From: a virus
Direction: 5' to 3' (one strand)
DNA: 28,048 nucleotides
IMG/VR virus record: IMGVR_UViG_3300045922_000283
Span: 1 to 28,048 of that record
The translations under genes were made by a program, and so were the position numbers. The notes beneath the pieces were generated by a model. It was not told the origin of the DNA. It saw nothing but the letters and a program-made list of their open reading frames with translations, and made no database searches. Of the stretch, positions 2,869-16,522 are shown piece after piece; position 1 is the stretch's first letter, and each line of letters begins with the position of its first letter.

Positions 2869-3177
2869 ATGTCGCCAAACCAGATACGAGAGTGGTGGGA
2901 GTTTTTTGCACAGGCTCCGTTAAGTATTGTGCTGTTGGCGGTTAATCTGACTATATTGTATGGTTTGGTAAAGTTTGTTATACATATAGTCAGAGAAATA
3001 CGAGCAACGATGGACTTAAATTCGACGTTGCGAAGCGACTTAATGTTAACTATAAAAAGACAAGAAACTTATATAGAAGAGCTTGAGGATCTCGTTGAGG
3101 ATTATAGAAATCAGTTAAAAGGTAGAAAAAATGCTACGGACGAGTCAACAAGGTCTCAATTTGATAAAGCACCATGA
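2869..3177 (+). CDS. Single-span membrane protein with coiled coil; holin candidate
   Basis: The 102-residue protein has one transmembrane helix at about residues 16-40 (SIVLLAVNLTILYGLVKFV), followed by a charged, coiled-coil-like helix to about residue 88 and a polar tail. It is the first gene of the lysis cassette and overlaps the lysozyme by 47 nt in another frame. That position and the small membrane-anchored form fit a holin or a lysis-timing partner. It also resembles the one-span coiled-coil proteins found near lysis genes, whose role is unknown. The Shine-Dalgarno sequence is weak. The function is inference. Confidence 0.5.
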   Translation: MSPNQIREWWEFFAQAPLSIVLLAVNLTILYGLVKFVIHIVREIRATMDLNSTLRSDLMLTIKRQETYIEELEDLVEDYRNQLKGRKNATDESTRSQFDKAP

Positions 3178-3844
3178 AGGGCTGCGTCTGACAGCGTACA
3201 AATGCCCCGCTGGCAGGTGGACCGTGGGATACGGCCACACGCGAACCGCGCATGAGGGAATGCGCATTACTGAGGAACAAGCTGAAAACTTACTTGCTCG
3301 TGATATCTCGATTGCGGAGCGGTGCGTTATAGCAAACGTTACGTCGAGAATTAATCAGCCGATGTTTGACGCTCTTGTGAGTTTTGTGTTTAACCTCGGT
3401 TGTGAGAGATTTAAGACATCTACGCTGCTGCGGTTTTTGAATGAGGAGCAGTACCATAAAGCAGCAGAGCAGTTCTCTCGGTGGGTAAACGCCAGAAATC
3501 CGAAAACTGGAAAACTTGAGCCGTTGCCGGGCCTTGTGGCAAGGCGAGCAAAAGAAAGACAGATGTTCGAAAAAGGAATGCTGGAGATTATCGGTTCTAC
3601 TGAAGGCGGTAATCAGCTTCCTCAAGATAATCCTCGATACCCAACTAAATCTACGACAAATGCAGGTCTCGCTGTAACAACTTTGGGAGTCGTAGGAACA
3701 GAAGTGACACAGCTTGCTAACGATGTTAGCCCTCTTGTAGCGTACTCGGATAGTATTAAAACTGTATTTGTGATTTTGACTTTGGTCGGAATCGCTATTG
3801 CAGCTTACGGAAGGTTTAAAGTCTACAAGGAGAAGGGAGTATGA
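3131..3844 (+). CDS. GH24 lysozyme endolysin with C-terminal holin-like membrane tail
   Basis: Residues 1-150 form a T4/P21-type muramidase that cleaves peptidoglycan. The E-8-C-5-T catalytic layout is visible as E16, C25 and T31 (HHEGLRLTAYKCPAGRWTVG). FNLGCERFKTSTLLRFLN is the usual mid-domain helix region. After a Pro/Asn-rich linker, a tail with a strongly hydrophobic helix (about residues 210-227, VFVILTLVGIAIAAYGRF) ends the protein. The 237-residue length exceeds a bare lysozyme. There is no N-terminal signal-anchor segment, so the C-terminal helix would be the membrane element. Similar lysozyme fusions with a C-terminal holin-like domain occur in phages and prophages of Gram-negative bacteria. 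AAAAGG upstream gives a fair ribosome binding site. Confidence 0.88.
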   Translation: MLRTSQQGLNLIKHHEGLRLTAYKCPAGRWTVGYGHTRTAHEGMRITEEQAENLLARDISIAERCVIANVTSRINQPMFDALVSFVFNLGCERFKTSTLLRFLNEEQYHKAAEQFSRWVNARNPKTGKLEPLPGLVARRAKERQMFEKGMLEIIGSTEGGNQLPQDNPRYPTKSTTNAGLAVTTLGVVGTEVTQLANDVSPLVAYSDSIKTVFVILTLVGIAIAAYGRFKVYKEKGV

Positions 3845-4269
3845 ACGCTGTTGCAGCTATTCCTACTGCGTCCAAGATGGCTAAGCTGTGCATTGGCCTC
3901 GCAGTTTTATCGTTTTCAGCGGGTGGGCTAGCAGTTTGGACTTTTCAGGACATTCGCTATGGTGCGCAGCTTGCTGCAAAAGATGCTTTCATAGCAAATC
4001 TTGAGAAGACTATTGCGGAAGAAAAGTCAGCCGTCCTTGAGCGAGTGTCACAAAGAGGTGCGGCTTTGGACCGTAAATATAGCGAACAGTTTGGCGCGTT
4101 GCAGAGGGCTATTCAGAATGCCAAAGTCAGTATATCTACCGATAATCAGCCTCGTTTGCTTACTCCTGACGAGTTGTGCATCTTGGAACAAGCAGAAAGA
4201 ATCGCCAAAGGTGCTGAGTTGTCCGGAAGTTGTGGCAAAGCCAGTATTGCCCTTTCCTCCAGTAAGTAG
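3841..4269 (+). CDS. Rz-like inner-membrane spanin subunit
   Basis: The 142-residue protein has an N-terminal membrane anchor (residues about 13-36, LCIGLAVLSFSAGGLAVWTF) followed by a periplasmic, helical, coiled-coil-like domain. This is the plan of Rz i-spanins, which with Rz1 fuse inner and outer membranes in the last step of lysis of Gram-negative cells. It starts in an ATGA overlap with the lysozyme and has a strong purine-rich ribosome site (AAGGAGAAGGGAG). Its second half contains the Rz1 start in the +1 frame. It stops with TAG. The Rz identity rests on architecture and context, since spanin sequences diverge widely. Confidence 0.8.
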   Translation: MNAVAAIPTASKMAKLCIGLAVLSFSAGGLAVWTFQDIRYGAQLAAKDAFIANLEKTIAEEKSAVLERVSQRGAALDRKYSEQFGALQRAIQNAKVSISTDNQPRLLTPDELCILEQAERIAKGAELSGSCGKASIALSSSK

Positions 4270-4405
4270 TATAAAAACTGATCAAGACGCTATAGTCTTT
4301 TATATCTATGCGGCTGGTGCTTACAGAAGCTGCGTACTCGCGCTTGAGGATTTAGAAAAACGAGCGAACTCACGTTCAAGAGATTCAGATGAGTCAGACA
4401 AGTAA
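4118..4405 (+). CDS. Rz1-like outer-membrane lipoprotein spanin subunit
   Basis: This 95-residue product starts inside the Rz gene in another reading frame and extends past its end, the classic overlapping spanin arrangement. I chose this ATG because AGAGGG lies about 9 nt upstream and because it places a lipoprotein signal at the N-terminus: hydrophobic IISLVCLLL followed by the lipobox LTSC, with C20 the lipidated cysteine. A proline-rich stretch (KPVLPFPP) follows, as in other Rz1 proteins. The open frame reaches further upstream, but that part is not needed. The last 17 bases overlap the portal start. Confidence 0.85.
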   Translation: MPKSVYLPIISLVCLLLTSCASWNKQKESPKVLSCPEVVAKPVLPFPPVSSIKTDQDAIVFYIYAAGAYRSCVLALEDLEKRANSRSRDSDESDK

Positions 4406-6362
4406 CGACGTGTTTAGCGAGTATGAGCGCCAGATGTCGCAGCTTGCGATAGAACGCGCTCTTGGCGAGTATGTTAAGTCTAAGTTTAAGGAAGCGGAGG
4501 ATCACCGCACTGAGACAGGAATCTCAAGGCGGTTGGAAGCGTGCCTTCGTGCCAAGAAGAAGGAATACACTCAAGAAGAACTGCAACTCCATAATGGCAT
4601 CGACATTTATGTCGGTATTTGCGATTTGAAGAGTAAGGGAGCTGAGTCTTGGATTACAGATATTTTGCTCAGTTCGATTGACAAACCGTTTACTCTTAAA
4701 CCCACGCCGATTCCTGAACTGCCTGAGTGGATGAAGGAACAGGTTGTGGACATGCTTGAACAAGAGCTGCAGTCCATAGGAGTTGAAAATCTGTCCGGTT
4801 TGATGGACAGAGCAAAAGAACTTAAAAACATCACGATGAAATACGCTGTTGATAGCGCAGAGCGTGCTGTCGCAGCTATGGAAAAACATATTGAAGATCA
4901 GCTACTTGAAGGCGGCTGGCGCACTGAGTTCGCTTCGTTTATTCACAATTTAACGGTATTTCCTTTCGCTGTTATTCGTGCTCCGATTATTACGTCGCGC
5001 CCTATTGGAGCGTGGGACGGAGACAAGTTTTCCGTAAAACAGCGTCCTGTTTGGTCTGTTAAAGCAGTTTCTCCTTTTGATTGTTTTTGGTCGCCTGATT
5101 CAACTAACCCACAGGATGGCGAGTATTTCATTCAAAGAGCTAGACTAAGCCATTCTGAACTATACAATTGCATCGGCTTGCCGGGGTTTAACGAAGAAGC
5201 TATTCGCCAAGTCCTTGATACCTACCGTCACGGGTATTCCGTGGAAGCACATGGCGATAGCGTTCGAGATGACTTAGAAGAAAAAGATGATACTCTTTTT
5301 AGCGGCAACATTGTAGAAGTGCTCATTATGAATGGGCGCATTCCGGGAGAGTTGCTCGCAGATAATAACGTTATTGTTCCAGACATTCAGCAGCATTACG
5401 AAAGTGAAGTTTGGGTTGTAGACAACATCTGCATTCGAGCTGTATTAAACACACATCCGCTTCTTGTTAGACCGATTTACAGCACATCATTTAGTAAAAT
5501 TCCAGGAACTTTTGCCGGGCAAGGTGTTGTAGATTTAGTAAGAGACATCGAACGCATGGCTAATGCTTCGATGCGTGCTGCGTTACGTAACTTTGCATAT
5601 TCGGCTGGACCGATTGCTGAAGCGGTTGTTGAACGGTTTGAGGCTGGTGAAAACCCTCAAGAAGTGCAGCCGTTCCGTATTTATAGCGTTAAACCTGATT
5701 ATACAGGCCAGAATGGGGATGCCATAAAGTTTAGAATCGTTCCAAACGTCGCAAACCAGCTCATGGAAGCGTTTGCGTACTACATGAAATTAGCGGACGA
5801 TTTTAGCCAAGTTCCTGCGTATGTCCTCGGCAATCCGCAAGTTGCAGGTGCGGGGCGCACTTTAGGCGGGCTGTCAATGCTGATGGGCAATGCGGCAAAA
5901 GGGATTAAGCAGGTTCTACTTAATATAGATAGAGACATCATAGAGCCTCTTGTATACTCGTACTACGTACTTAATATGGCAGTCGGTGATGACGACTCTA
6001 TTAAAGCAGACGCGCATGTCGTAGCTCGTGGTGCATCTGGATTGCTACAGAGAGAGCTTGCTCAAACTAGAACCGTTGAGATTTTGAATTTGTTAACTCC
6101 GTATGTCCAAGCAGGTGCGCTTGATGCCTCCAGCATTAAAATTCTGCTTCGTGAGATACTGAAAACTACAGGCTTGCCTGTGGACGATATTATTCCTGAT
6201 CCTCAAAGATTAAGTGATATTGAGTCCGCTCTGAATCGTGTTGGGCTCGCGAACGGGCTTGCTCGCGGGGTTTCCGATCCTGTACCATTACCGCCACAAA
6301 GCCAGCCGCCGATTCCTGAACCGGCGTTTCCTGTTCCTGTCAACCTTCCTACAGGAGCTTGA
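4389..6362 (+). CDS. Portal protein
   Basis: The 657-residue protein fits the portal, the dodecameric ring at the capsid vertex through which DNA enters and leaves. The N-terminal half has wing-like mixed structure (TVFPFAVIRAPI). The centre has a long helix before GRTLGGLSMLMGNAAKG (from residue 489), typical of podovirus portals. The helical C-terminal part (IDRDIIEPLVYSYYVLNM) fits the crown, followed by a proline-rich tail. Length and position after lysis and before head genes agree. AAGAGA gives a modest ribosome site. The C-terminal PPQSQPPIPEPAFPVPV tail may be flexible. Assignment is by motif pattern, not strict identity to T7 gp8. Confidence 0.88.
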   Translation: MSQTSNDVFSEYERQMSQLAIERALGEYVKSKFKEAEDHRTETGISRRLEACLRAKKKEYTQEELQLHNGIDIYVGICDLKSKGAESWITDILLSSIDKPFTLKPTPIPELPEWMKEQVVDMLEQELQSIGVENLSGLMDRAKELKNITMKYAVDSAERAVAAMEKHIEDQLLEGGWRTEFASFIHNLTVFPFAVIRAPIITSRPIGAWDGDKFSVKQRPVWSVKAVSPFDCFWSPDSTNPQDGEYFIQRARLSHSELYNCIGLPGFNEEAIRQVLDTYRHGYSVEAHGDSVRDDLEEKDDTLFSGNIVEVLIMNGRIPGELLADNNVIVPDIQQHYESEVWVVDNICIRAVLNTHPLLVRPIYSTSFSKIPGTFAGQGVVDLVRDIERMANASMRAALRNFAYSAGPIAEAVVERFEAGENPQEVQPFRIYSVKPDYTGQNGDAIKFRIVPNVANQLMEAFAYYMKLADDFSQVPAYVLGNPQVAGAGRTLGGLSMLMGNAAKGIKQVLLNIDRDIIEPLVYSYYVLNMAVGDDDSIKADAHVVARGASGLLQRELAQTRTVEILNLLTPYVQAGALDASSIKILLREILKTTGLPVDDIIPDPQRLSDIESALNRVGLANGLARGVSDPVPLPPQSQPPIPEPAFPVPVNLPTGA

Positions 6363-6364
6363 CA

Positions 6365-6649
6365 ATGATTTTCGATGGTAGCCCAGTTCTTGTTGGCGAT
6401 TCCGTGTTTGATTTAGCCTACGGTCCTGGAATTGTAGTTGAGTTGAAACCTGTTGAACAGAGGTTTATTGTCCGTTTTGGACAAAGATACGTAGGATACA
6501 CGCTTAGCGGAGTTGGTAATTTTGACAGAAAAACGCTTTACTGGCGCGATCCTGTTTTAAGTTTGCCGGTTCCAAAGTCCTCTGACAAGTGGTCGCTTTT
6601 TACTCAGATTAAGCAAAGCATTCATAACGCTATTTTAGGCTCTAACTAA
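6365..6649 (+). CDS. Small beta-barrel (SH3/Tudor-like) phage protein
   Basis: The product is 94 residues. AGGAG seven bases upstream fixes the ATG here rather than the TTG six bases earlier. The first 60 residues alternate hydrophobic strands and Gly turns (GDSVFDLAYGPGIVVEL, RFIVRFGQRYVGYTLSG), a pattern common in small SH3-like or Tudor-like barrels found in many phages. A helix follows (FTQIKQSIHNAILG). The function is unknown. Lying between portal and fibre genes, it may be a minor structural or assembly protein. Its TAA shares the A of the next ATG (TAATG). Confidence 0.65.
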   Translation: MIFDGSPVLVGDSVFDLAYGPGIVVELKPVEQRFIVRFGQRYVGYTLSGVGNFDRKTLYWRDPVLSLPVPKSSDKWSLFTQIKQSIHNAILGSN

Positions 6650-9189
6650 TGGCGAACGAGATATCTAAAACTCCAACACCATCCTTAGCTTCGGGGCAGT
6701 CCGAAGTTTTGATGGGATCGCATGTTTTTTCTGCTTTAAATCTGACGTCTCCTATTATAGTTGTTGATAGAGAGCCGGTTAAAGTCGTAGTTTTTGGGTT
6801 AACTGGCGATGCTACGGTTACAGTTCACCAAGTTTTTGGCGTCAACGACGATTTAGTATCTGAAGAATACAGGCCCTATCCGCAGGGCCTTGTTTTTAGC
6901 TCAGACAGAAATGAAATAATCTTACAAAGGTCTGGTCGTTACAGACTTGTAGGGGCTGAAATTACGCAAGAAGTTCGCGCCTTTTGGTGGAACTTCTCAA
7001 TGACGCATGAGTGGACGGACATTATTGAAGAGGCATTAAGGTATCTGTGTGCCTGCGTTCGTCCAAATGACGTTGAACTTGTCGCTGGCAATGGCATTTT
7101 AGTTGAAAATCTTGGCGGTGGTACTTGGCGAGTTACTAACACTGCTATTCATACAGCAGTTGATACTGCCACTGTTGACCACCAAATCGTAAGCGGCGTC
7201 TTAAGCTCGCATGTTAAGCTGTCAGAAGACCCGGGCAATGAAATGTTTGCCCGAGATGACGGTTTGTATGCTACGATTTCAGACCCAAATGCTCCGTGTA
7301 ACTTAGGTAATCTTGTACAACCGTTTAATGGGCGAGTTCGTAATGCACGCTTTCTTGTTCTCGATAATCAGGGATGTATTCGTTGGGTGCGTGCACGTTC
7401 GCTTGCAAACTATATTTGCGATTTTGAGTGTGAAGAAGAACCGCCGCCATCGAGTTGTTGTGCTTTAACGTTTACTCACTCGGTCCAAACCATTGAGTCA
7501 GTTGGTGTCGGTACAACTGTTCAAATAACTTTAACTGCTACTGGCTCGAATAGTGCCGCTTGTAGAGCTTTTACAAATAGCCTTGCGTTCTCTCCATTGA
7601 TAGGGCAGAGTGTTAATGGTTGGAGATATGACGGAGTTTCTTTTTCTGGTGCAAACCCATTTACCAACGTAGACTTTAATACAGCTAACATAACCTCTTG
7701 GTCTGCAGTATTTACGTTTGTAGCAACTGAATGTAATTCTAACGGTAGAAATATAAGCTTTACCGCTACAGGTAATTGCCGAAACTCGCTTGGTCAGATT
7801 ATTTCTGGTTCGGAAGTTACGTACCCAGTTTCAGTTACTTTACCTCCGATTACTGAAAATTGTGGAGGTGTCGAACCGCCGCCAAGTTGCTGCGGTTTGG
7901 GTATTTCTATTAGCTATACGCCGCTTTCAGGCCCGGTTGCAGTTGGAGCGTATTTCGACGTTACTGTTCTCTCCGTTTCGTCGCCTTCTTCAAACTGCCA
8001 TGGCAGGCTTTTTCCGAATGACCTGCTCGCTTTGACGCCTGCTGGATGGGTTGTTGATAGCGTTACTAGCACTCCTACGGGCCAAGACATTCGCACAGGC
8101 GTTAACCATAGTATCGCTGGTACCAGCTTTATTACTAACGTTATTCGTCTTCGTGCGGTTGAGTGTGTTCCAGCCGCTTCGCCACCTTTTACTGTAAGCG
8201 GTGCTTGCTTTAATTCATTTGGAAACCAGTTAGTAGATACTTTTGTAAGCGAGACTGCGATTATATCTTTTCCGCAAGTTAATGCAAATTGCGAAGGAGG
8301 CCCGCCTCCCGGAAGCTGTTCGAGTTCGTATTCGCATAGTATATCCTCTATTAGTTCTCCAGTATCTGTTGGAGACACGTTCTATCTTGACGTCACTCTT
8401 ACGGGCACTAATGCGGCTGCAGCAAGAACTAAGAATTTCGCTCTTAATCAACCGGCGTCAATCCCGTCTGGATGGACTTTGCAGTCTATAAATGTCATAG
8501 GGTTGCCGCCAGCGTATGATCCGGTAAATAGCGAAGTAGACTTCCATTTAGCTAATGTTACTTCGTTTACAGTAAGATACACTTTTGTTGCTTCAGCATT
8601 AAATTCTGGAGGCACGTCTAACTTCGTAGTTAGCGCTAGATGCGTGGATAGTTCAGGCAACACGCTTCCCGGCACTATCATAAATTATCCAATAAACATT
8701 CAATTTCCTGCTGTTACCAATACTGGTACTGGTCCCACGCCTACTTGCTGCGGGCTTAGTCTTGATGTCGAAAGCGTCATACCAGTTGGAGGTAAATGCG
8801 AGATTGCAGAAGTTGTTTTCGTCGTAACGTCAAATTCGCCTACGCCAAGTTGTGCAGCTAGAACGGAGCCGTTTGCGCCAACTGTTGGTGGACCAAATGT
8901 TTTCACTATAATTAGTACAGAAACGCTGTTGCTCGACAACTCTCCAGCGCCGTTTGATGCAAGAAACGGTGTTGATTTTAGAACAAGAGGTGTGAGCGGG
9001 TGGAAACTTAGAGTTAGAGCTAGAGCTATCAACTGTGTTGGCGAACCAGAACCGTCCGATATGGCTATAAGCTTTAGCGGCGGATGCGTTAATGAAGCAG
9101 GAAACTATATCGGCGGGTCGCCGTCTAGTTACTCTGCTATCGCTATAATAGGTTCGCCAATCACTAACTGCACTGCAATTTGTAGCTAA
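6649..9189 (+). CDS. Large beta-rich fibre or appendage protein with four Cys-containing modules
   Basis: This 846-residue protein has an N-terminal domain (about 1-264) homologous to that of the next gene (shared VDREPVKVV.FGL, SGRYRL, FSMTHEW). It is followed by four modules of about 145 residues beginning near 265, 410, 552 and 696. Each opens with a Pro-rich linker and a Cys or Cys-Cys (PPPSCCGL, PTCCGLSL) and alternates strands in an Ig-like or DUF11-like way, often with internal Cys pairs. The shared N-terminus probably docks on the tail or head while the modules project outward, as receptor-binding or decoration fibres do. It starts in a TAATG overlap with no strong ribosome site. Function is inferred from architecture. 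Confidence 0.7.
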   Translation: MANEISKTPTPSLASGQSEVLMGSHVFSALNLTSPIIVVDREPVKVVVFGLTGDATVTVHQVFGVNDDLVSEEYRPYPQGLVFSSDRNEIILQRSGRYRLVGAEITQEVRAFWWNFSMTHEWTDIIEEALRYLCACVRPNDVELVAGNGILVENLGGGTWRVTNTAIHTAVDTATVDHQIVSGVLSSHVKLSEDPGNEMFARDDGLYATISDPNAPCNLGNLVQPFNGRVRNARFLVLDNQGCIRWVRARSLANYICDFECEEEPPPSSCCALTFTHSVQTIESVGVGTTVQITLTATGSNSAACRAFTNSLAFSPLIGQSVNGWRYDGVSFSGANPFTNVDFNTANITSWSAVFTFVATECNSNGRNISFTATGNCRNSLGQIISGSEVTYPVSVTLPPITENCGGVEPPPSCCGLGISISYTPLSGPVAVGAYFDVTVLSVSSPSSNCHGRLFPNDLLALTPAGWVVDSVTSTPTGQDIRTGVNHSIAGTSFITNVIRLRAVECVPAASPPFTVSGACFNSFGNQLVDTFVSETAIISFPQVNANCEGGPPPGSCSSSYSHSISSISSPVSVGDTFYLDVTLTGTNAAAARTKNFALNQPASIPSGWTLQSINVIGLPPAYDPVNSEVDFHLANVTSFTVRYTFVASALNSGGTSNFVVSARCVDSSGNTLPGTIINYPINIQFPAVTNTGTGPTPTCCGLSLDVESVIPVGGKCEIAEVVFVVTSNSPTPSCAARTEPFAPTVGGPNVFTIISTETLLLDNSPAPFDARNGVDFRTRGVSGWKLRVRARAINCVGEPEPSDMAISFSGGCVNEAGNYIGGSPSSYSAIAIIGSPITNCTAICS
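6689..6710 (+). promoter_or_regulatory. Start-proximal hairpin with T4, +40 in the large fibre gene
   Basis: CTTCGG (6689-6694) pairs with CCGAAG (6701-6706) around GGCAGT. The stem extends by a G-U and an A-T pair. TTTT follows at 6707-6710. The arm begins 40 nt from the start codon. Confidence 0.5.
6871..6897 (+). terminator. Terminator-like hairpin inside a coding region
   Basis: AGGCCCT (6871-6877) pairs with AGGGCCT (6884-6890) around a 6-nt loop, followed directly by TGTTTTT. It has the shape of an intrinsic terminator but lies about 75 codons into an intact gene, so it may act as an attenuator or be incidental. Confidence 0.4.
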
Positions 9190-9191
9190 TT

Positions 9192-10796
9192 ATGGCAAAT
9201 AAAAAGACTACGCATCCGACACCTACTGTTTGGGCTGCTGGCAACGAACGGCAGCCTTTTTCGATGGTGTTTTCGCCTGCGTCTACTTCTCAGTTTTCGC
9301 AAAATATAAATGTCGATAGAGAGCCTGTAAAAGTCGTAGCTTTTGGGCTTCGTCAAGACGAGTTTATAGAGATACTGCATTTAGCCGGAGAAATGTCCGG
9401 TAGTGCGTTTGAGGCGTATAAACCGTTTGACGGCGCGCTTGTAATAACTTCTGAACAAAATGAAGTTACTTTAGCCCGTTCTGGTCGATACAGACTTCGT
9501 TTTCAAGGCACTCATGGCCAAATGTACTGCTTCTGGTGGCAGTTTAGTATGACCCATGAGTGGATGAACGAAGTTTTAGCGAACGGGCTTAGGCAACTTT
9601 GCGAGTGCTTACAGCCGCCTCCGTTTGAGATAGTCGCTGGAACTGGTATACAAGTAACGCAGCTTAGCCCCATCTTATGGCATATAGCTAATACTTTTGC
9701 GGTTGATGTTGCAGATACCACGACTATAGACCATACTGTTACGACTGTAGCGGGGCTTAGAGTTTTAAGCTCAAATGTACTTGTTTCGCCGTATGCAGGC
9801 AATCTAATACAAGTTCGTCCTGACGGGCTATACGTTAATTTAAGCTCACAGCTAACACCCTGCGGTTTTGGAGCGCTTATTCAGCCTTCTCCAGATAGAA
9901 TGCCGCTTAGGTTATTAGCGCTTAATGAGTTTAACTGCATTACGAGTATTCCTGCTGAAGACGTTGCAAGATATCTCTGCAATGTCGATTGCACACCGAC
10001 GGTTAACCTAAGCGTCGTAAAAACAGCGTCTCCAGAGAATCCACAGTACGGTGAGTTGACAACGTTCACTGTTACCATATCTAATAGTGGACCTGAAGAT
10101 GCCGTTGATCTGCTTGTTAGAGATTCGCTCCCACCGGGATTCTCTAACTTCGAGCCGATTCCCATTACGTACACAGGTGGTGCATATGGGCCACCAAACA
10201 CAACTAGAGTTGGTTTAGCTACGGGGTTTTATTGCGGAATTCCGGCTGGCGGGTCGCTCACTTTTACGGTTCAGGCGTACCCTTGGCAGCTTGGAAGATA
10301 CACGAACACAGTGTTTGTTGAACTTTTGCCTCTCTATATTAATGAAGGCAACAGTTTTGCTACTGTTTCTGGCAATGTCGTTGCTTCCGAAAACGACTTG
10401 TCGATCAAGATTGCGTACCATCCTGAGTACACAGTTGGCGAACCGAACTACGTTATAGTTGAAGTTGCAAATAATAGCCCGGTTCCAGCGCCAAATACTA
10501 ACGTCGCCATGTCAAGGCCACAGCCTATGTTTGATCCGTATCCTGCTCCGGATGGCGCAGTTATTGTTTCGCGTGATTGGACACCCGGTCTTGATGTGAC
10601 TTTCACAGAAAGCGCTTTTGGATTCCCTCATAATTTAGGAACTATACCTCCAGGCGGCAAAGTGTATATTAGGCTTTGGCTCAATCCCGCACTTGCCGAA
10701 GTATATTCTGAATATTTCTCTGTCTACTCTGATTTAATAGAGTCTGATACTATAAACAATACTACCCACTTTCTTGGAACTATCAAGTCCCCATGA
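9192..10796 (+). CDS. Fibre or appendage protein, paralogue of the preceding gene, with DUF11-like repeats
   Basis: The 534-residue protein shares its N-terminal domain (about 1-260) with the preceding gene: NVDREPVKVVAFGL, RSGRYRLRF, FSMTHEWMNEV. The C-terminal part has two different Ig-like modules. Residues about 267-395 are close to the DUF11 pattern (VKTASP, GELTTFTVTISNSGPEDA, RDSLPPGF); residues about 400-534 are a related domain (NYVIVEVANNSPVPAPN, then an IPPGG turn). DUF11/CARDB-like domains occur in surface and adhesive proteins, so a host-facing or decoration role is likely. The same base with exchanged tips is a typical plan for tail-attached fibres. Its TGA overlaps the next ATG. 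Confidence 0.7.
   Translation: MANKKTTHPTPTVWAAGNERQPFSMVFSPASTSQFSQNINVDREPVKVVAFGLRQDEFIEILHLAGEMSGSAFEAYKPFDGALVITSEQNEVTLARSGRYRLRFQGTHGQMYCFWWQFSMTHEWMNEVLANGLRQLCECLQPPPFEIVAGTGIQVTQLSPILWHIANTFAVDVADTTTIDHTVTTVAGLRVLSSNVLVSPYAGNLIQVRPDGLYVNLSSQLTPCGFGALIQPSPDRMPLRLLALNEFNCITSIPAEDVARYLCNVDCTPTVNLSVVKTASPENPQYGELTTFTVTISNSGPEDAVDLLVRDSLPPGFSNFEPIPITYTGGAYGPPNTTRVGLATGFYCGIPAGGSLTFTVQAYPWQLGRYTNTVFVELLPLYINEGNSFATVSGNVVASENDLSIKIAYHPEYTVGEPNYVIVEVANNSPVPAPNTNVAMSRPQPMFDPYPAPDGAVIVSRDWTPGLDVTFTESAFGFPHNLGTIPPGGKVYIRLWLNPALAEVYSEYFSVYSDLIESDTINNTTHFLGTIKSP
9233..9261 (+). terminator. Start-proximal hairpin with T5, terminator-like, +41
   Basis: GGCTGC (9233-9238) pairs with GCAGCC (9251-9256) around a 12-nt loop, immediately followed by TTTTT. 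It has full intrinsic-terminator shape yet sits within the coding sequence 41 nt after the start codon and about 45 nt past the previous stop. It could end part of the upstream transcripts or cause pausing. Confidence 0.45.
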
Positions 10797-10927
10797 TAGA
10801 AAAAATTGGAGTTTTTCTATTTAATGCGTTTACCTTTGGCACTGACTGTCCAACTTGTATTGGTTGGCGAATCGGTTTAGCTCTTTTTATTATGTTTTTT
10901 GTTGGATTTTGCTCAGCTAAGCTGTGA
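10793..10927 (+). CDS. 44-residue single-span membrane peptide
   Basis: This is a short but convincing gene. Its ATG overlaps the preceding TGA (ATGA) and its own TGA overlaps the next GTG (GTGA), so it is coupled on both sides. The peptide begins MIEKIGVFLFNAFTFG, contains a CPTC pair at residues 19-22, and ends in a hydrophobic helix at about 27-43 (IGLALFIMFFVGFCSAKL). One membrane helix is likely. Its place directly before a glycosyltransferase raises the possibility that it is a membrane partner or anchor, but no family is recognised. Confidence 0.6.
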   Translation: MIEKIGVFLFNAFTFGTDCPTCIGWRIGLALFIMFFVGFCSAKL

Positions 10928-11520
10928 TAGATATACACATAATTCGGTACCATTCACTATCAAAACCTGAATGGTTTGATAGGTGCGTAGCTTCAGTTAC
11001 GCATCCTAAAACTGCTGTACATGTTATTAACGGCACCCCGAAACCACATTTTGGAAAACTCCGTGTAGATGCGTTCAAAAAAGGTAGTGGAGAATTTGTA
11101 AGTTTTATAGATGACGACGACTATCTTTTACCGAATGCTGTAGATGTTCAATTAAAGAACATCAAAGATGCAGACTTCATTATATCAGGCTATCTTATAG
11201 AAGGCGGTTTAAAGGCAAGCGTTACCCCTTCAACATTGGATTACAAGATAGCTAGAAAGCGGTTATACTATTTTCAAGGTTTTAAGTTGATTAGACGTAA
11301 AGTTGTTGAAAAGTACTACGATATATTAAAAGATTGCGAAATCTTTGAAGATGCGCTTCTTTGGTGCATTCTTACTAAAAAGCATAAAGGAGTTATAACT
11401 ACAGAACCGCTTCTTTATAGAACAGAGCATTCTGCAAATGTATCAAAAGACAAAGTCGCTACTCGTCTAATGAATCGCAAAACTTTTGAGTATTTTATTT
11501 CGCAGGCCAATAATGTCTAA
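10924..11520 (+). CDS. Small family-2-like glycosyltransferase (GT-A fold)
   Basis: The 198-residue protein shows a compact GT-A layout: an N-terminal strand (IDIHIIRYHS), a region ending with the metal/nucleotide-sugar site FIDDDDYLLPNA (D63-D66 cover the DXD motif), a middle segment, and an acidic helix EIFEDALLWC where family 2 enzymes place the catalytic acid. It would transfer a sugar from a nucleotide donor, but donor and acceptor cannot be read from sequence. It starts with GTG overlapping the membrane-peptide stop and lies between fibre genes, which suggests that virion fibres or a host surface glycan are its target. At under 200 residues it is short for the family. Confidence 0.75.
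   Translation: MIDIHIIRYHSLSKPEWFDRCVASVTHPKTAVHVINGTPKPHFGKLRVDAFKKGSGEFVSFIDDDDYLLPNAVDVQLKNIKDADFIISGYLIEGGLKASVTPSTLDYKIARKRLYYFQGFKLIRRKVVEKYYDILKDCEIFEDALLWCILTKKHKGVITTEPLLYRTEHSANVSKDKVATRLMNRKTFEYFISQANNV
10957..10982 (+). promoter_or_regulatory. Start-proximal hairpin, 10 bp with one bulge, +33
   Basis: CTATCAAAACC (10957-10967) pairs with GGTTTGATAG (10973-10982) around TGAAT, with a single bulged A. It lies 33 nt into the glycosyltransferase gene. Confidence 0.5.
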
Positions 11521-11725
11521 CGCAAGTAACGAAATTTACAGTATACTTAGTTTGACTAATCCAGCTACTCCGCCAGTTAGGTTAGTCAACGGCAAAGCTA
11601 CTTTCTTTGCAGCGGGACTTTGGAACGGTAGCACTTACGATCCTTTGCCGCATGACGTACTTTTTCAAGTCAGGCCATACTTTAATTTTGATGGCAGCCC
11701 TTGGACTAACGTTAATGCCGGCTAG
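11513..11725 (+). CDS. Beta-domain virion-associated protein, ended early by an amber codon
   Basis: The first 70 residues (MSNASNEIYSILSLTNPATP...) end at TAG, but the same frame continues without other stops to TAA at 11870-11872, exactly where the next gene begins (TAATG). The joined 118 residues would form one small beta domain: GKATFFAAGLWNG before the stop and GGEWQVRAVIG after it. This resembles the GRYR-type domains of neighbouring genes. A single C-to-T change from CAG (Gln) would explain the stop. Either the gene is broken, or the host or phage suppresses the codon. The start overlaps the glycosyltransferase end by 8 nt. Confidence 0.6.
   Translation: MSNASNEIYSILSLTNPATPPVRLVNGKATFFAAGLWNGSTYDPLPHDVLFQVRPYFNFDGSPWTNVNAG
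11552..11589 (+). promoter_or_regulatory. Start-proximal hairpin, 10 bp with one bulge, +39
   Basis: TTGACTAA (11552-11559), a bulged T and CC pair with GG (11580-11581) and TTAGTCAA (11582-11589), around a 17-nt loop. The arm begins 39 nt into the gene. Confidence 0.5.
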
Positions 11726-11872
11726 TTTACGGTGCATACTCAGACTGCAAACGGGTTTGCCGCAACAATTTACCTAGGTGGTGAGTGGCAGGTTAGAGCC
11801 GTTATTGGTCCTGTTTGGGCTTCTGGATCGCAGGCTGGAGTTAGCATCGGTGCCTCAGTGGAGAGTAAATAA
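11726..11872 (+). pseudogene. In-frame continuation after the amber codon
   Basis: Forty-eight sense codons in frame with the preceding gene, beginning FTVHTQTANGFAATIYLGG and ending SIGASVESK, then TAA. Composition and codon use look protein-coding and match the strands expected to complete the domain. There is no start codon with a plausible ribosome site, so it would be made only by amber readthrough. Otherwise it is a decaying remnant. Confidence 0.55.
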
Positions 11873-12927
11873 TGGCGATTTCTCAAAAAAATATTATTTA
11901 CGATCCAACTCCTGATTGGAGCGAGATTGAGAACAAACCTACGGCGTTTCCTCCTGAGCCGCATACTCATCCGTTATCTGATATTCAACAATCGGGCGCA
12001 ACGACGGGGCAGGTGCCGCAGTGGGACGGTACTGCGTGGGTGCCCGCAACGGTTAGTGGCGGCGGCTCTCCGGGCGGCAGCGGAACCGAAGTCCAGTACC
12101 GAGTCGACGCAAGCACCTTCGGCGCGATGGCCGGCACCGCCTGGGACAACACCAACCGCACGCTGACGATCACGGGTGCGACAGTCACGACGTCGCAGCC
12201 TCTTCTGAATCTCTCGCAGACGTGGAACGACGCTGCGGTCGATTTCATCGGCTTGCAGTTCAACGCGATAAACACCGCCAGTCATGCAAACAGCCGCTTG
12301 TTGTCTTTAAGCGTCAACGGAGATTTTCAGTTTGGCGTAGGTGTAGACGGGGCGATCGTAACATCAAAAAGTTTTTCGGCTTACGATCTTGTAAGGACTG
12401 GGCGGGTTGGGATTCGCCATGACGGATCGGACAGGCTTCAGTTTGGCGTTGTGTTTGGAGGATCGGTTAGTGGTAGATTTTCAATTCACGTTCTCGAGGG
12501 ATGGTCTGTTGCTCAAGCCGGATACGGCTTTGCGGCAGACGTATCGCTTAGTAGCGTCACTCCTGATCTTTGGCTAAGGCGAGACGCTGCGAACATCCTT
12601 GCCCAGCGCAACGGCACCGCCGCGCAGACGTTCCGCGCGTACAACACGTTCACCAACGCCAGTAACGGAGAATGGCTGTCTATTGGATGGGCGTCGAATG
12701 TCTGCACGATTACGCCGCAAGCTGCCGGAACTGGCACTCTGCGGCCGTTGATTGTCCGGCATCCACCGGTTACGGTGGCTTCGTTGCCGAGCGCGTCGAG
12801 TGTCGGCGCTGGTGCGCGGTGTATGGTCTCTGATGCGTCCGCGCCTGTGTTTGGTGATGTCGTAGCTGGAGGCGGCAGCATTATTGTTCCTGTATATTCA
12901 GATGGCACAGATTGGAGAGTGGGATGA
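11872..12927 (+). CDS. Modular tail fibre protein
   Basis: The 351-residue protein has the hallmarks of exchangeable fibre segments. An N-terminal linker has the His/Asp motif HTHPLSDI followed by GQVPQWDGTAWVPA. A glycine-rich hinge and GTEVQYRVDASTFGAM come next. A central beta-rich domain carries SRLLSLSVNGDFQFGV, and a C-terminal tip resembles sequences seen in many phage fibres (VTVASLPSASSVGAGARCMV, PVYSDGTDWRVG). It probably trimerises. Base composition is patchy: about 12000-12290 and 12590-12660 use GC-ending codons while adjacent stretches do not, as expected if modules were acquired separately. The start shares an A with the previous TAA. Confidence 0.85.
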   Translation: MAISQKNIIYDPTPDWSEIENKPTAFPPEPHTHPLSDIQQSGATTGQVPQWDGTAWVPATVSGGGSPGGSGTEVQYRVDASTFGAMAGTAWDNTNRTLTITGATVTTSQPLLNLSQTWNDAAVDFIGLQFNAINTASHANSRLLSLSVNGDFQFGVGVDGAIVTSKSFSAYDLVRTGRVGIRHDGSDRLQFGVVFGGSVSGRFSIHVLEGWSVAQAGYGFAADVSLSSVTPDLWLRRDAANILAQRNGTAAQTFRAYNTFTNASNGEWLSIGWASNVCTITPQAAGTGTLRPLIVRHPPVTVASLPSASSVGAGARCMVSDASAPVFGDVVAGGGSIIVPVYSDGTDWRVG

Positions 12928-13319
12928 TTACAGTAGTTATTAATGACCGTCGTTTACTTGCTGGTGTTCAGGCTGCGTGGTTAGCAGGACGGCCGCAAGA
13001 TGAGGAAAGCCAGCTTTATTATCCTCGCAGTCCTCAAGAATGGTTACAACAAGTTGTAGAAGCTGCTTGTCGTAGTTATCGCGATCAATACAGTCCAGAT
13101 AAAATTAATGTTGCAGATTTTATTATTCGCGCACCAGACGTTTTTTCTCGTGTAGTGCAAGATTCTTCGAACGATCCTGTATTAACAGCGCTACTTGCGC
13201 GCTTACGATCAGAAGCTTATATATGGCTTGAATCAGATGAAGTTCGGCAAGGTGTTCAATATTTAGTACAGCGGGGCTATATAACTCCGGAGCAGGCGCA
13301 AAATCTACTTGCTTATTAA
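12924..13319 (+). CDS. Helical protein of unknown function next to the tail fibre
   Basis: The product is 131 residues. The ATG overlapping the fibre stop (ATGA) is chosen over an in-frame TTG upstream because of the coupling and the GGAG about 7 nt before it. The sequence is predominantly helical with acidic and aromatic residues (EWLQQVVEAACRSYRDQYS) and ends in RGYITPEQAQNLLAY. No enzyme motif is visible. The location directly after a fibre gene would suit a fibre assembly factor or a minor virion protein, but this is speculation. Confidence 0.6.
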   Translation: MITVVINDRRLLAGVQAAWLAGRPQDEESQLYYPRSPQEWLQQVVEAACRSYRDQYSPDKINVADFIIRAPDVFSRVVQDSSNDPVLTALLARLRSEAYIWLESDEVRQGVQYLVQRGYITPEQAQNLLAY

Positions 13320-13327
13320 GGTGTAGT

Positions 13328-13585
13328 ATGACTCGTAGTATTATTGACATTCGCGATACTACTAAGAATGAGTTTGTAGTTAATCCAGACTCAAAGCAAC
13401 CTGCATTGTTTGCTAGTGATTGTTTGATTCGAGCGTATCTTCGAGAAGTGTCCGGAAATACTGTTCCGTTACTTTTTACTCCTACCGAAATTGCTAATGC
13501 ACGAAATCGTGCTAAAACAAACCCGGAAGATGTCCGCCCACTTGCTTCAAAGTGGAAGCGTATTTTAAGCATTATTTGTGAATGA
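13328..13585 (+). CDS. Small hypothetical protein
   Basis: The 85-residue product is preceded by a good ribosome site (AAGGTG). It contains no recognisable motif: polar N-terminus (MTRSIIDIRDTT), a central hydrophobic segment, then basic helices (NARNRAKTNPEDVRPLASKW). It is part of a run of small genes between the fibre and the scaffold, a position where podoviruses keep poorly conserved accessory genes. Confidence 0.55.
   Translation: MTRSIIDIRDTTKNEFVVNPDSKQPALFASDCLIRAYLREVSGNTVPLLFTPTEIANARNRAKTNPEDVRPLASKWKRILSIICE
13335..13362 (+). promoter_or_regulatory. Start-proximal inverted repeat, 7 bp, +7
   Basis: GTAGTAT (13335-13341) pairs with ATACTAC (13356-13362) around 14 nt. It lies closer to the start than the other hairpins of this window and within the initiating ribosome footprint. 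Confidence 0.35.
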
Positions 13586-13586
13586 T

Positions 13587-13859
13587 ATGATTAAGCGCGG
13601 AAAAGAAACTTTTTCTGGCTACAACAAGCCTAAACGCACGCCTAATCATCCAACTAAATCACACGCAGTTCTTGCGAAAGTTGGAGATAAAGTTAAGCTA
13701 ATTAGGTTTGGTCAGCAAGGTATTAAAGGTTCGCCAAAGAAATCTGGTGAATCTGAATCTTATCGAAAACGACGTGAAGCTTTTAAAGCTAGGCACGCTA
13801 AAAACATCAAAAAAGGCAAAATGTCAGCTGCATATTGGGCTGACAAGGTGAAATGGTGA
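13587..13859 (+). CDS. Conserved small basic phage protein (KRGKETFSGYNKPKRTP type)
   Basis: The product is 90 residues, very rich in Lys and Arg. The stretches KRGKETFSGYNKPKRTPNHP, LIRFGQQGIKGSPKKSGES and ARHAKNIKKGKMSAAYW are characteristic of a small protein found widely in marine and freshwater phages; its role is not established, as far as I know. The charge suggests nucleic acid binding. Either this ATG or the GTG nine bases upstream could be the start, since neither has a clear ribosome site. I prefer the ATG because the family usually begins at about this point. Confidence 0.75.
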   Translation: MIKRGKETFSGYNKPKRTPNHPTKSHAVLAKVGDKVKLIRFGQQGIKGSPKKSGESESYRKRREAFKARHAKNIKKGKMSAAYWADKVKW

Positions 13860-14272
13860 TGTCAATTATAGGTCAGATCGTGACTGCACTACCAGATAAT
13901 TCGCTATACGCGCCTTCAGAAATCCTTAATGGAGATTCTCGAATCTTATTTGGACCGGACTCGGTTGACGACAAGTCCGCAGTTTTTGTCGTACTTAATC
14001 GACCGTATACGATTCGAGCGTTTAATTTGATTTCTGGAGAAAGTGTAAGCATTGAAATGGTAGCTGGTCCGGGGTCCGGAACCATGTTTGCTCAGGCGGT
14101 GACGCCGGAGGGCAATCCTGTTGTCTTGACTCCGGGCAGGCCGTCGTATACGCTGTTCATCGCAGGCCGCTATAGAGCGCGGCTTAACGGTAGAGTTGGA
14201 GAGGTTTACGTCGATACCTTCCCAACTGATCTGTTGCGTACAAGTGGGTATTCAACTAACTACGGGACTTAA
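13859..14272 (+). CDS. Small GRYR-domain protein, paralogue of the fibre N-terminal domains
   Basis: The 137-residue product starts at the ATG sharing its A with the previous TGA (TGATG), with AAGGTG 8 nt upstream. An ATG six bases earlier leaves almost no space after that site. The core (LNRPYTIRAFNL, GESVSIEMVAG, AGRYRARLNGRVGEVYVDTF) aligns with VDREPVKVVAFGL and SGRYRL in the two large fibre genes, so it is a stand-alone copy of the same beta domain. It may form part of the same appendage or cap it. Function is inferred from homology within the window only. Confidence 0.65.
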   Translation: MSIIGQIVTALPDNSLYAPSEILNGDSRILFGPDSVDDKSAVFVVLNRPYTIRAFNLISGESVSIEMVAGPGSGTMFAQAVTPEGNPVVLTPGRPSYTLFIAGRYRARLNGRVGEVYVDTFPTDLLRTSGYSTNYGT

Positions 14273-14274
14273 AT

Positions 14275-14430
14275 ATGAAATACTCTGAAAAACGTAAAAC
14301 TGGTAGCCGTGGTATGGCTGGTCATGCTACTGAGCATAATCGTTCACTGTTTGCGCATAAACAAGCAGAGTCTAAGCTTCATGCGATGAAAACTAGCGGA
14401 TGCAAGACTTGCGGAAAGCGTAAAAAATGA
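14275..14430 (+). CDS. 51-residue basic protein with C-terminal Cys pair
   Basis: A short gene fills the gap between its neighbours: it starts two bases after one stop, and its TGA overlaps the next ATG (ATGA). The peptide begins MKYSEKRKTGSRGMAGHATE and ends SGCKTCGKRKK, with a CKTC pair and a strongly basic tail. This could bind a metal or nucleic acid. It has no recognised family. Spacing and coupling make it a credible gene despite its size. Confidence 0.6.
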   Translation: MKYSEKRKTGSRGMAGHATEHNRSLFAHKQAESKLHAMKTSGCKTCGKRKK

Positions 14431-14621
14431 ATGATAAGGAAAAGAAGCTGATCGAAGAGCTTCGACGGTCTCCTTTGCTTAAACAGTTTCTTGAGTACAT
14501 TCACGAAAAGGAAGCTGCGCTTGATGTTTGGAAATATGTGAGTGAAGACAATCTCAAGCGAATTCAAGGAAAAGCGCAGCTTATTGACGAAATTAAACGG
14601 GACTTAGCAAATGGCCGGTAA
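14427..14621 (+). CDS. Small helical protein upstream of the scaffold
   Basis: The 64-residue, highly charged, helical protein (EKKLIEELRRSPLLKQFLEY) overlaps the previous stop (ATGA) and overlaps the scaffold start by 11 nt. Small acidic/basic helical proteins are common just before podovirus scaffold genes. Its role is unknown, possibly a head-assembly accessory. Confidence 0.6.
   Translation: MNDKEKKLIEELRRSPLLKQFLEYIHEKEAALDVWKYVSEDNLKRIQGKAQLIDEIKRDLANGR
14444..14463 (+). promoter_or_regulatory. Start-proximal inverted repeat, 6 bp, +17
   Basis: GAAGCT (14444-14449) pairs with AGCTTC (14458-14463) around an 8-nt loop. A modest stem that chance could explain. Confidence 0.3.
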
Positions 14622-15585
14622 ACCAGCATCAATCAAAAACATGCGGACGCTTCCGCCTATGAACCCGGAAGCGCCTTCGTCAGCGGTGGTTAATGCCGTT
14701 ACTTCGGAAGAGGTTAACCAAGCTGTTGAACAAGACGTTTCCGAAGCTAACGAAGATCCGTGGGCCATTGCTGAAGCCGCTCAAGTTTCCGACAGTACAG
14801 AGAACTTTCAGCCGAGCCAACCCACAGTTCCGGTTCATGCGCCTTCTAATGAAGTTGCTAAAGTTCCTGATTATGTAGCTGAGCTTGAAGAACAGCGCCG
14901 TAAAAACAGAGAACTTACTGAACTTGTACTTGAGTTAAACGAAAAACTTGATAGGTTGGCCGCTAGTCAGCAAGCTAAACCGCAAGCTCCGTCTACGCTT
15001 AATATTGATGAGAAAGACTTAGAACTTTCTCCTAACGAACAAGAAGTTTATAAAGAGTCGCTTCCGGTTATTGAAAAAGTTGTTAAGAGGCATCTTAAAC
15101 AACTTGAAAATGTTTTGACTAATCGTATCGAAGAAGTTAAGACTGTTTCAGCTAAGAACGACCTTTCTTCTTTCGTTAACGCAGTTCAACTTCGTGTTCC
15201 GAATGCTAGAGCTTTAACTAAAGATCCGTCTTTTATTCGCTACCTTAGCGAAAGAATTCCAGGAACGGGGTTGACTAGAAAACAGATTTTTGATTTAGCG
15301 CACGAGAATAGAGACCTTGAAGCGGTTGTTAGCATTTTTGAAGGGTTTTCAGACAAGCCAGATGCAACCGCTTCCATGAAGGCTCCAAGTTCAGTTGCAG
15401 CTAATCCACAAGTTACAGCCCCTACTCGTTCGACTCAGGGGCGTAAGCCTGTTTTTAAAGAGTCGGATAGTAAGAGGCTGAGTGAGGATTTTAGAAGTGG
15501 CAAAATCTCGTTAGATGTTTATAAAAAGCGCCGTGCTCTTTTAGAAGAGGCGGTTCGTGAAGGTCGTATTATCAGAGGTAAATAA
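14611..15585 (+). CDS. Capsid scaffolding protein
   Basis: The 324-residue protein shows the usual scaffold plan. A long acidic, low-complexity, Pro-containing N-terminal half leads to a coiled coil at about 86-118 (VAELEEQRRKNRELTELVLE). Helical segments follow, then a basic C-terminal helix (VYKKRRALLEEAVREGRIIR), where scaffolds contact the coat protein. It lies immediately before the major capsid gene. It would form the internal core on which the procapsid assembles and be removed before packaging. No protease motif is visible. Confidence 0.85.
   Translation: MAGKPASIKNMRTLPPMNPEAPSSAVVNAVTSEEVNQAVEQDVSEANEDPWAIAEAAQVSDSTENFQPSQPTVPVHAPSNEVAKVPDYVAELEEQRRKNRELTELVLELNEKLDRLAASQQAKPQAPSTLNIDEKDLELSPNEQEVYKESLPVIEKVVKRHLKQLENVLTNRIEEVKTVSAKNDLSSFVNAVQLRVPNARALTKDPSFIRYLSERIPGTGLTRKQIFDLAHENRDLEAVVSIFEGFSDKPDATASMKAPSSVAANPQVTAPTRSTQGRKPVFKESDSKRLSEDFRSGKISLDVYKKRRALLEEAVREGRIIRGK
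14648..14673 (+). promoter_or_regulatory. Start-proximal hairpin, perfect 8 bp, +37
   Basis: CGCTTCCG (14648-14655) pairs with CGGAAGCG (14666-14673) around a 10-nt loop, 37 nt into the scaffold gene. Confidence 0.5.
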
Positions 15586-15595
15586 GGAGTAAATT

Positions 15596-16522
15596 ATGAT
15601 TCCTGCTGCAAGTGGCTACCCCCAACTTACAAACGTTTTTACTGATCCAGTCTACGTCGATAAATTCCTCGACTTGACTTATTGCGCGACGATCTATCCC
15701 AATATTTCGGAAACTCGCGCGGAGCTTAGCGATTGCGGTACTCAGGCTATTTTCCGTCGTGAACCGGATGTTGAGATTCGTCCGTATGTCAAGAATCAAC
15801 AGCTTGAGCATACAACTCCGGATACGTCCACCGTCGTGATGAATATTGACCAGAGCTATTACTTCTCGGTCAAGATCGACGATGTGGACATGAAGCAGAT
15901 TTGCAATTCGTCTCAGTTGACGGATGCAATCTTCCGACGCGCAGCTTATAAGATCGGCGTTACCATCGACGAGCAAGTCATGGGTACGCAGTTTACTGAA
16001 GCTGCTCCGGAAAATCAGGGTCCAAACGCTGGTGTTAGATCCAGAGCCTATAATCTTGGTGAAGTTGGCAACCCGTTCCCTCTCGACAGCGAAAACATTC
16101 TCGCTTTTCTTCTGTCGATGAAGATGGTGCTCAAGGAAGCGTGCATTCCGGAAGACGACCTTTTCGTGGTTGTTCCTCCGCGAATAGAACTTCTTTTGAT
16201 GACCTCAGAACTTTCTAACTGCTTTACCACCTGCACTACTTGGTCGCCATTAATTGAGGGCTATACGCCTCCAAAAGTGGCAGGCTTTGAGGTTTATGTT
16301 TCCAACCACGTTCCGTCTGTTGTTGACGCTGGCGTTAATCAGCAGGCGTGGTGGATCATTGCAGGTTCTAAATCGGCTACTGGTTTCGTTGCGCAGTTAG
16401 ACAAAACTCGTGATGCAACTAGCGCTGATTTCTTTGGCGTCCTTTTCCAAGGCTTGGCTCTTTGGGGTACTAAAGTTCTCTACCCTGAGCGCCTTGCTGT
16501 TGGTTACGTTTACGCGGCCTAA
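15596..16522 (+). CDS. Major capsid protein
   Basis: The 308-residue protein is the likely HK97-fold coat protein. It follows the scaffold and has one of the clearest ribosome sites in the window (AAGGAG six bases before ATG), consistent with very high expression. It has a long N-terminal region, a central strand/helix part (FSVKIDDVDMKQI, FRRAAYKIGVTIDEQVM), a domain with FVVVPPRIELLLMTS where HK97-type coats carry the A-domain, and a C-terminal strand region (GTKVLYPERLAVGYVYAA). Codons are somewhat more GC-ending than in neighbours. A second in-frame stop (TAATAG) follows the first. Confidence 0.9.
   Translation: MIPAASGYPQLTNVFTDPVYVDKFLDLTYCATIYPNISETRAELSDCGTQAIFRREPDVEIRPYVKNQQLEHTTPDTSTVVMNIDQSYYFSVKIDDVDMKQICNSSQLTDAIFRRAAYKIGVTIDEQVMGTQFTEAAPENQGPNAGVRSRAYNLGEVGNPFPLDSENILAFLLSMKMVLKEACIPEDDLFVVVPPRIELLLMTSELSNCFTTCTTWSPLIEGYTPPKVAGFEVYVSNHVPSVVDAGVNQQAWWIIAGSKSATGFVAQLDKTRDATSADFFGVLFQGLALWGTKVLYPERLAVGYVYAA

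Follow-up and report, generated by a model that had tools for sequence, protein, structure and literature searches.

A conserved 44-residue membrane micropeptide precedes a GT-A glycosyltransferase between the fibre-like genes of a podovirus-like phage clade

The virus record IMGVR_UViG_3300045922_000283, analysed here over its entire 28,048 bases (the window), looks like the half of a podovirus-like phage genome that holds the virion genes and encodes, within a cluster of fibre-like genes, a 44-residue membrane micropeptide followed by a compact GT-A family-2 glycosyltransferase. We find that this pair is real and conserved, that the enzyme and its setting are ordinary, and that the peptide is new. 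The reading we favour, with a probability of about 0.4, is that the enzyme glycosylates the conserved shafts or base of two fibre-like proteins late in infection.

Results

The micropeptide gene (10793–10927, plus strand, ATG start) lies directly downstream of the gene for fibre-like protein B (534 aa; 9192–10796, plus strand; DUF11 domain, Pfam PF01345, E 2.6e-14), and the glycosyltransferase gene (198 aa; 10924–11520, plus strand, GTG start) follows it. Both open reading frames (ORFs) exist as a preliminary description of the sequence had proposed, with a single membrane-type span in the first and a DDDD motif at residues 63–66 of the second, and so do the overlaps with both neighbours: ATGA at 10793–10796 joins the fibre stop to the peptide start and GTGA at 10924–10927 joins the peptide stop to the enzyme start. 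The region is spanned by four records, all phage records compared being fragments: the window, G003 (loci L002, L005 and L013), G001 (L003, L006 and L011) and G002 (L012). L002 and L003 have the same enzyme sequence and one residue of difference in the peptide, so we count three lineages; L009 and L010 include the head gene but stop short of the pair region, and are left out of all counts. Peptide then enzyme stand in constant order between fibre-like genes in 4/4 spanning records from the three lineages of this one clade. The placement proposed earlier is thereby borne out, as is conservation of the peptide together with the enzyme elsewhere in the clade, on which the proposal had been staked beforehand.

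The peptide ORF is retained in every spanning record, at 44 residues each and with 73, 70 and 61% identity between the window copy and the three others. Invariant residues across the four rows comprise K4 I5 G6 V7, N11, F13 T14, G16 T17 D18 C19, C22 I23 G24 W25 R26 I27, L29, F35 and G38 F39, giving a TDCxxCIGWR motif; C40 is retained in three of four rows and is Y in L006. The window and L005 copies differ at 42 nucleotides, distributed 10, 6 and 26 over codon positions 1, 2 and 3, with proportions of synonymous (pS) and nonsynonymous (pN) differences of 0.85 and 0.16; synonymous sites are saturated, and we therefore give no ratio of nonsynonymous to synonymous substitution rates (dN/dS). Of the 44 residues, 32 are identical, a number reached in none of 20,000 simulations using uniform random substitutions, which averaged 18.5 and peaked at 28. 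This substitution pattern indicates a genuine gene under strong purifying selection. An antisense ORF (10783–10953, minus strand) is open in all three lineages, with 27/43 identical residues between window and L005, and was rejected as a gene: the antisense and peptide frames have their third codon positions on the same nucleotides, which makes the antisense conservation a by-product of the sense gene.

One membrane-type span covers about residues 19–41 of the peptide, where the best 19-residue Kyte–Doolittle mean is 1.86 for the window copy and 2.16 for L012. A structure model tentatively places a hydrophobic N-terminal helix at residues 2–14 and a membrane-type helix at residues 20–43 (predicted local distance difference test, pLDDT, 69.4; predicted template modelling score, pTM, 0.40). 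The peptide had no match in Pfam (E ≤ 1), PHROGs (0.1) or NCBIfam (0.1), and tblastn against 50,697 phage records returned none at E ≤ 10. It is thus a conserved 44-residue family that is new relative to the families and named phages tested.

The enzyme passes the Pfam PF00535 profile narrowly, at 24.3 bits against a curated cut-off of 23.3, through a match that begins at profile position 55. The cut-off is passed in 4/4 records, and the enzyme is the sole family-2 glycosyltransferase found in each. PHROG matches include phrog_14775, annotated as a glycosyltransferase (E 1e-6), and phrog_19440, of unknown function (E 2.4e-7); NCBIfam matches are all sub-threshold, including the PglI-type family NF050050 (E 5.9e-6, 25.9 of 500 bits). 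Identity between the window enzyme and its counterparts in the three other records is 61, 61 and 51%. A profile built from the four rows finds TarP (6h1j) at E 8.4e-4 over residues 47–172, with the ED motifs of the two proteins paired.

The best of five structure models, built from the four-row alignment, is usable, not strong (pLDDT 73.5, pTM 0.74; the other four range in pLDDT from 60.2 to 37.4). Among the matches listed, Foldseek ranks TarS (5tzi, E 7.4e-7), TarP and RmlT at the top, and VIA-align gives PcManGT (6yv7) a Z-score of 13.7 with a root-mean-square deviation of 3.2 over 181 aligned residues, many other GT-A enzymes falling within 1 to 2 Z units. On this modelling the GT-A fold is settled and the subfamily is not. 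PMC7185993 names four landmarks of the fold: DxD, a G-loop glycine, xED and a C-terminal histidine (C-His). The corresponding D63–D66 (DDDD), G119, E142–D143 and H169 are retained in all four rows, two of which are identical; G119 and H169 were assigned to G-loop and C-His through order and spacing. Since all four landmarks persist, the enzyme is probably active and inverting, and the earlier assignment as a GT-A glycosyltransferase stands on family, fold and landmarks alike. Strand 2 of family-2 enzymes usually ends in an acidic residue, which is not seen at residues 36–37 of this enzyme. No membrane span is predicted in the enzyme.

Short overlaps had also been taken as a sign of coupling special to the pair, a view that the rest of the genome does not sustain: 22 of 33 junctions in the window overlap, 7 of them by exactly 4 nt, in a list that omits three doubtful short ORFs and treats 11513–11872 as one gene. 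The 4-nt overlap between peptide and enzyme is retained in every lineage; at the fibre side, L012 has a 2-nt gap between the fibre stop and the peptide start.

We searched for the pair outside the clade. A six-frame profile search of nine loci with distant enzyme relatives (L004 and L023–L030) found the peptide in none, and no look-alike was seen directly upstream of these enzymes. Upstream of the L004 enzyme there are hydrophobic short ORFs in an AT-rich stretch, in which the conserved core is absent. Across the nine loci and the 50,697 phage records, no independent co-occurrence of peptide and enzyme was found in unrelated phages. A glycosyltransferase on an E. coli plasmid resembles the enzyme (28.6% identity over 78%) and belongs to a polysaccharide gene set in which no such peptide is annotated; a literature search of limited extent turned up no comparable pair. 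Further relatives did not emerge when the alignments of peptide and enzyme were scanned against viral sequences, from genome scans (0 relatives among 20 pattern matches for the enzyme and 114 for the major head protein), from searches of the phage records that used the enzyme (E ≤ 0.01) or the fibre B protein as query, or from megablast of the first 25 kb against those records; the scans were seeded by short exact patterns, which distant copies may escape. Since the peptide is missing beside the distant relatives of the enzyme, we regard the pairing as a trait of the clade inherited by descent, and a functional unit is a candidate interpretation of it. The suggestion that peptide and enzyme form an undescribed two-gene unit is accordingly a fair description of the arrangement within the clade and is not supported beyond it, where 0/9 distant loci carry the peptide.

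The pair sits in a block of genes that appears to be particular to the clade. Fibre-like protein A (846 aa; 6649–9189, plus strand; an ORF whose name is inferred) precedes protein B, and the two share an N-terminal region of about 260 residues with 40% identity over ~264 aa; both are candidate acceptors for the enzyme. Protein A has no PHROG match, and protein B is 62% identical in L002. Protein B also shows 34% identity over 90 aa to relatives of the gene at 13853–14272. The N-terminal domain apparently common to 6649–9189, 9192–10796 and 13853–14272 is possibly a virion attachment domain. Downstream of the enzyme, a small conserved gene (11513–11872, plus strand) contains an in-frame TAG at 11723–11725; the gene is intact in L002 (6585–6935) and L012 (4769–5122), and the TAG may reflect mutation, an error in sequencing or a site of read-through. 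There follows a variable fibre/tip gene (11872–12927, plus strand, guanine-plus-cytosine (GC) content 0.564) with weak tail-fibre PHROG matches, for example phrog_23676 (E 4.8e-4). Between the window and L012, the head protein is 92% identical, the fibres 48–49%, the peptide 61% and the enzyme 55%, and the tip is unrelated beyond its first 12 residues to the L012 counterpart (5122–6174; the L002 counterpart is at 6932–7480). By this comparison the tip gene looks like a fast-exchanging receptor-binding region. There are 128 nucleotide differences between the tip regions of L002 and L003, and the L012 tip protein contains repeated TVGGG/NTASG-type motifs in translation.

Other genes of the window include a terminase (956–2434), a lysis set (2869–4269) consisting of an endolysin and an Rz-like spanin (3131–4269, PHROG matches) with a small ORF preceding both, a portal/head–tail adaptor (4389–6362, phrog_332, E 8e-32), a putative scaffold gene directly upstream of the head gene (14611–15585), and the major head protein (15596–16522, phrog_267, E 5e-34). 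The nearest matches of the portal are Rhizobium phages at 30% identity, and the Rz-like spanin match implies a Gram-negative host. The distance from portal/adaptor to head gene is 9.2 kb in the window (6362–15596), compared with 1.7, 1.2 and 1.4 kb in RHph_TM3_14A, vB_Pun_Y3 and BcepC6B, where no fibre or glycosyltransferase gene is annotated in the interval; the annotation of Pmp11, a fourth named relative by portal/terminase, stops at the adaptor. Because the distance is far shorter in the named relatives, the fibre–peptide–enzyme–tip block is an insertion or expansion of the clade. An Rfam search of the window gave no match, and promoter and terminator scans came close to shuffled expectation (15 against 12.7 and 14 against 10.9) and were not used as evidence.

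Discussion

Late glycosylation of fibre-like proteins A and B by the enzyme is the explanation we prefer, and we place a virion acceptor ahead of a host envelope glycan. From their position, the two genes would be co-transcribed with the virion genes and expressed late. The enzyme would take a nucleotide sugar from the host and transfer it with inversion to a hydroxyl acceptor, most likely on the conserved shaft or base of the two fibre-like proteins. The pair stays in place although the tip gene next to it changes between lineages, which suggests a constant acceptor, such as the two fibre-like proteins, and not the tip. The appendages would then leave the cell glycosylated, with possible effects on masking, stability or binding. 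Coupled translation of the same message would yield the micropeptide as a distinct small protein of the inner membrane; the micropeptide may hold the enzyme there, which fibre glycosylation does not require.

Several observations are consistent with a virion acceptor. The pair lies between fibre-like genes in each of the four spanning records. In mycobacteriophages, phage-encoded glycosyltransferases add glycans to capsid and tail-tube proteins (PMC12363180), and the Che8 virion glycosyltransferase is among the listed BFVD structural matches of the enzyme, at rank 27. Proteomics reported in PMC5852040 identifies glycoproteins in phage XacN1. As to the donor, sugar-activating genes of the NTP_transferase type were found in none of the four records, in a search whose control was found in 14/14, so the sugar would be drawn from the host. 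With a single family-2 glycosyltransferase and no NTP_transferase gene per record, these partial records lead us to expect at most one sugar, taken from the nucleotide-sugar pool of the host.

Other considerations weigh against fibre glycosylation. The compared records are fragments. Synthesis of virion proteins takes place in the cytosol, and an enzyme anchored in the membrane would be poorly placed to act on them; a conserved membrane peptide fits modification of the host envelope better. The listed PDB relatives and top Foldseek matches (TarP, PglI-type, TarS and RmlT) act on envelope glycans, a weak argument given how broad family 2 is.

These points lead to the strongest alternative, in which the enzyme would act late in infection on the cytoplasmic side of the inner membrane and its target would be a glycan of the host envelope (O-antigen, capsule or a lipid-linked precursor), with the peptide as anchor or as recruiter of a membrane partner. 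New virions would thereby avoid sticking to the debris of lysed cells, or superinfection would be blocked. We rate this somewhat below fibre glycosylation. It would account for a conserved membrane peptide directly upstream, with its 4-nt overlap in every lineage, of an enzyme that has no span of its own, and the sequence relatives, TarP and NF050050 (the latter far below its cut-off), are envelope-glycan enzymes. A precedent is podovirus Kapi1, which modifies its own O-antigen receptor (PMC8787464). However, known phage seroconversion sets come mostly from temperate phages (PMC12619734), and no integrase was found among ten early G001 proteins scanned, a part of the early set. Contact between peptide and enzyme is putative, and the xED aspartate sets the enzyme apart from the GtrB type. 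A GtrAB seroconversion set was in fact tried as an identification and rejected, with D143 of xED present in 4/4 rows and a 44-residue, single-span partner that matches neither GtrA nor any other Pfam family at E ≤ 1; polyprenyl-phosphate transferases of the DPM/GT2-DP type have no xED aspartate (PMC7185993).

An unlikely alternative is that peptide and enzyme are neighbours by descent only, the peptide acting alone as a small envelope protein that, for example, interferes with host polysaccharide polymerisation or tunes lysis. Every copy comes from one clade with an inherited arrangement, all 9 distant enzyme loci lack the peptide, and short overlaps are frequent in this genome. Phage epsilon15 encodes an inhibitor of this kind, iap, which acts on the O-antigen alpha polymerase (PMC8787464). 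Against mere adjacency, the peptide and enzyme genes are both low in GC (0.348 and 0.358 in the window, 0.356 and 0.395 in L013, 0.363 and 0.401 in L012) relative to their neighbours, which weakly suggests that they arrived as one piece, although hydrophobic codons alone depress the GC of the peptide gene. A role in lysis is not needed, with the lysis set located elsewhere.

Glycosylation of phage DNA through base hypermodification is very improbable: such phage glycosyltransferases are known (PMC12619734 and PMC5852040), but no thymidylate-synthase-type gene was found in any of the four records, in a search whose control was found in 9/14 genomes, and the glycosyltransferase gene sits among virion rather than replication genes. 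A Tet/JBP search was empty, its control also matched nowhere, and it was not used as evidence.

If the peptide controls or places the enzyme, the pair would be a very small example of membrane recruitment of a soluble glycosyltransferase, and it would tell whether the glycan target of a fibre-linked phage enzyme is the virion or the host. Otherwise, the phage lineages known to have a glycosyltransferase gene amid their virion genes increase by one, and a conserved 44-residue gene family is added. A bolder and distinctly improbable extension is that the peptide founds a new viral family of membrane micropeptides that bind compact soluble family-2 enzymes, forming a membrane-associated, two-gene counterpart of anchored bacterial envelope enzymes that is kept with fibre genes so that one transcript alters both the receptor-binding proteins and the surface they meet. 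Glycosyltransferases among phage virion genes are already known, and any role for the peptide is a guess.

Comparison with characterised systems places the enzyme within familiar territory. It shares with PF00535/GT-A enzymes a profile score above the cut-off, the fold and the DxD, G-loop, xED and C-His landmarks, and differs in its compact length of 198 aa. The closest solved relative by sequence profile among the listed matches is TarP, the wall teichoic acid N-acetylglucosaminyltransferase of S. aureus, a 345-residue enzyme acting on a Gram-positive polymer, whereas the phage enzyme is shorter and its implied host Gram-negative; identity to TarP, TarS and the structural matches is 16–20%. 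The virion glycosyltransferases of mycobacteriophages Che8, Corndog and Myrna are likewise phage-encoded and of GT-A type, and in those phages virion glycosylation has been demonstrated by experiment (PMC12363180), in contrast to the phage described here. The Che8 enzyme (Q855A2) is larger, at 391 aa. The mycobacteriophage genes are not known to have a neighbouring micropeptide.

The closest parallels in gene arrangement come from two other phages, which also show that a glycosyltransferase among virion genes is less exceptional than the preliminary description supposed. Gordonia phage GodonK encodes two annotated glycosyltransferases, gp81 and gp82, whose genes overlap each other by 4 nt and are flanked by genes for the head and the tail, and gp81 is similar to the enzyme of L012 (E 4e-4 over 42%); GodonK differs in having two enzymes and no annotated membrane micropeptide, and is another phage type. 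In XacN1, ORF326 resembles the enzyme and follows an ORF of roughly 9.9 kb with a 4-nt overlap. The phage gtrAB(C) sets offer a further likeness, a family-2-like enzyme encoded beside a membrane protein in a phage, from which the present pair is distinguished by its single-span peptide, its xED-aspartate enzyme and its setting among virion genes.

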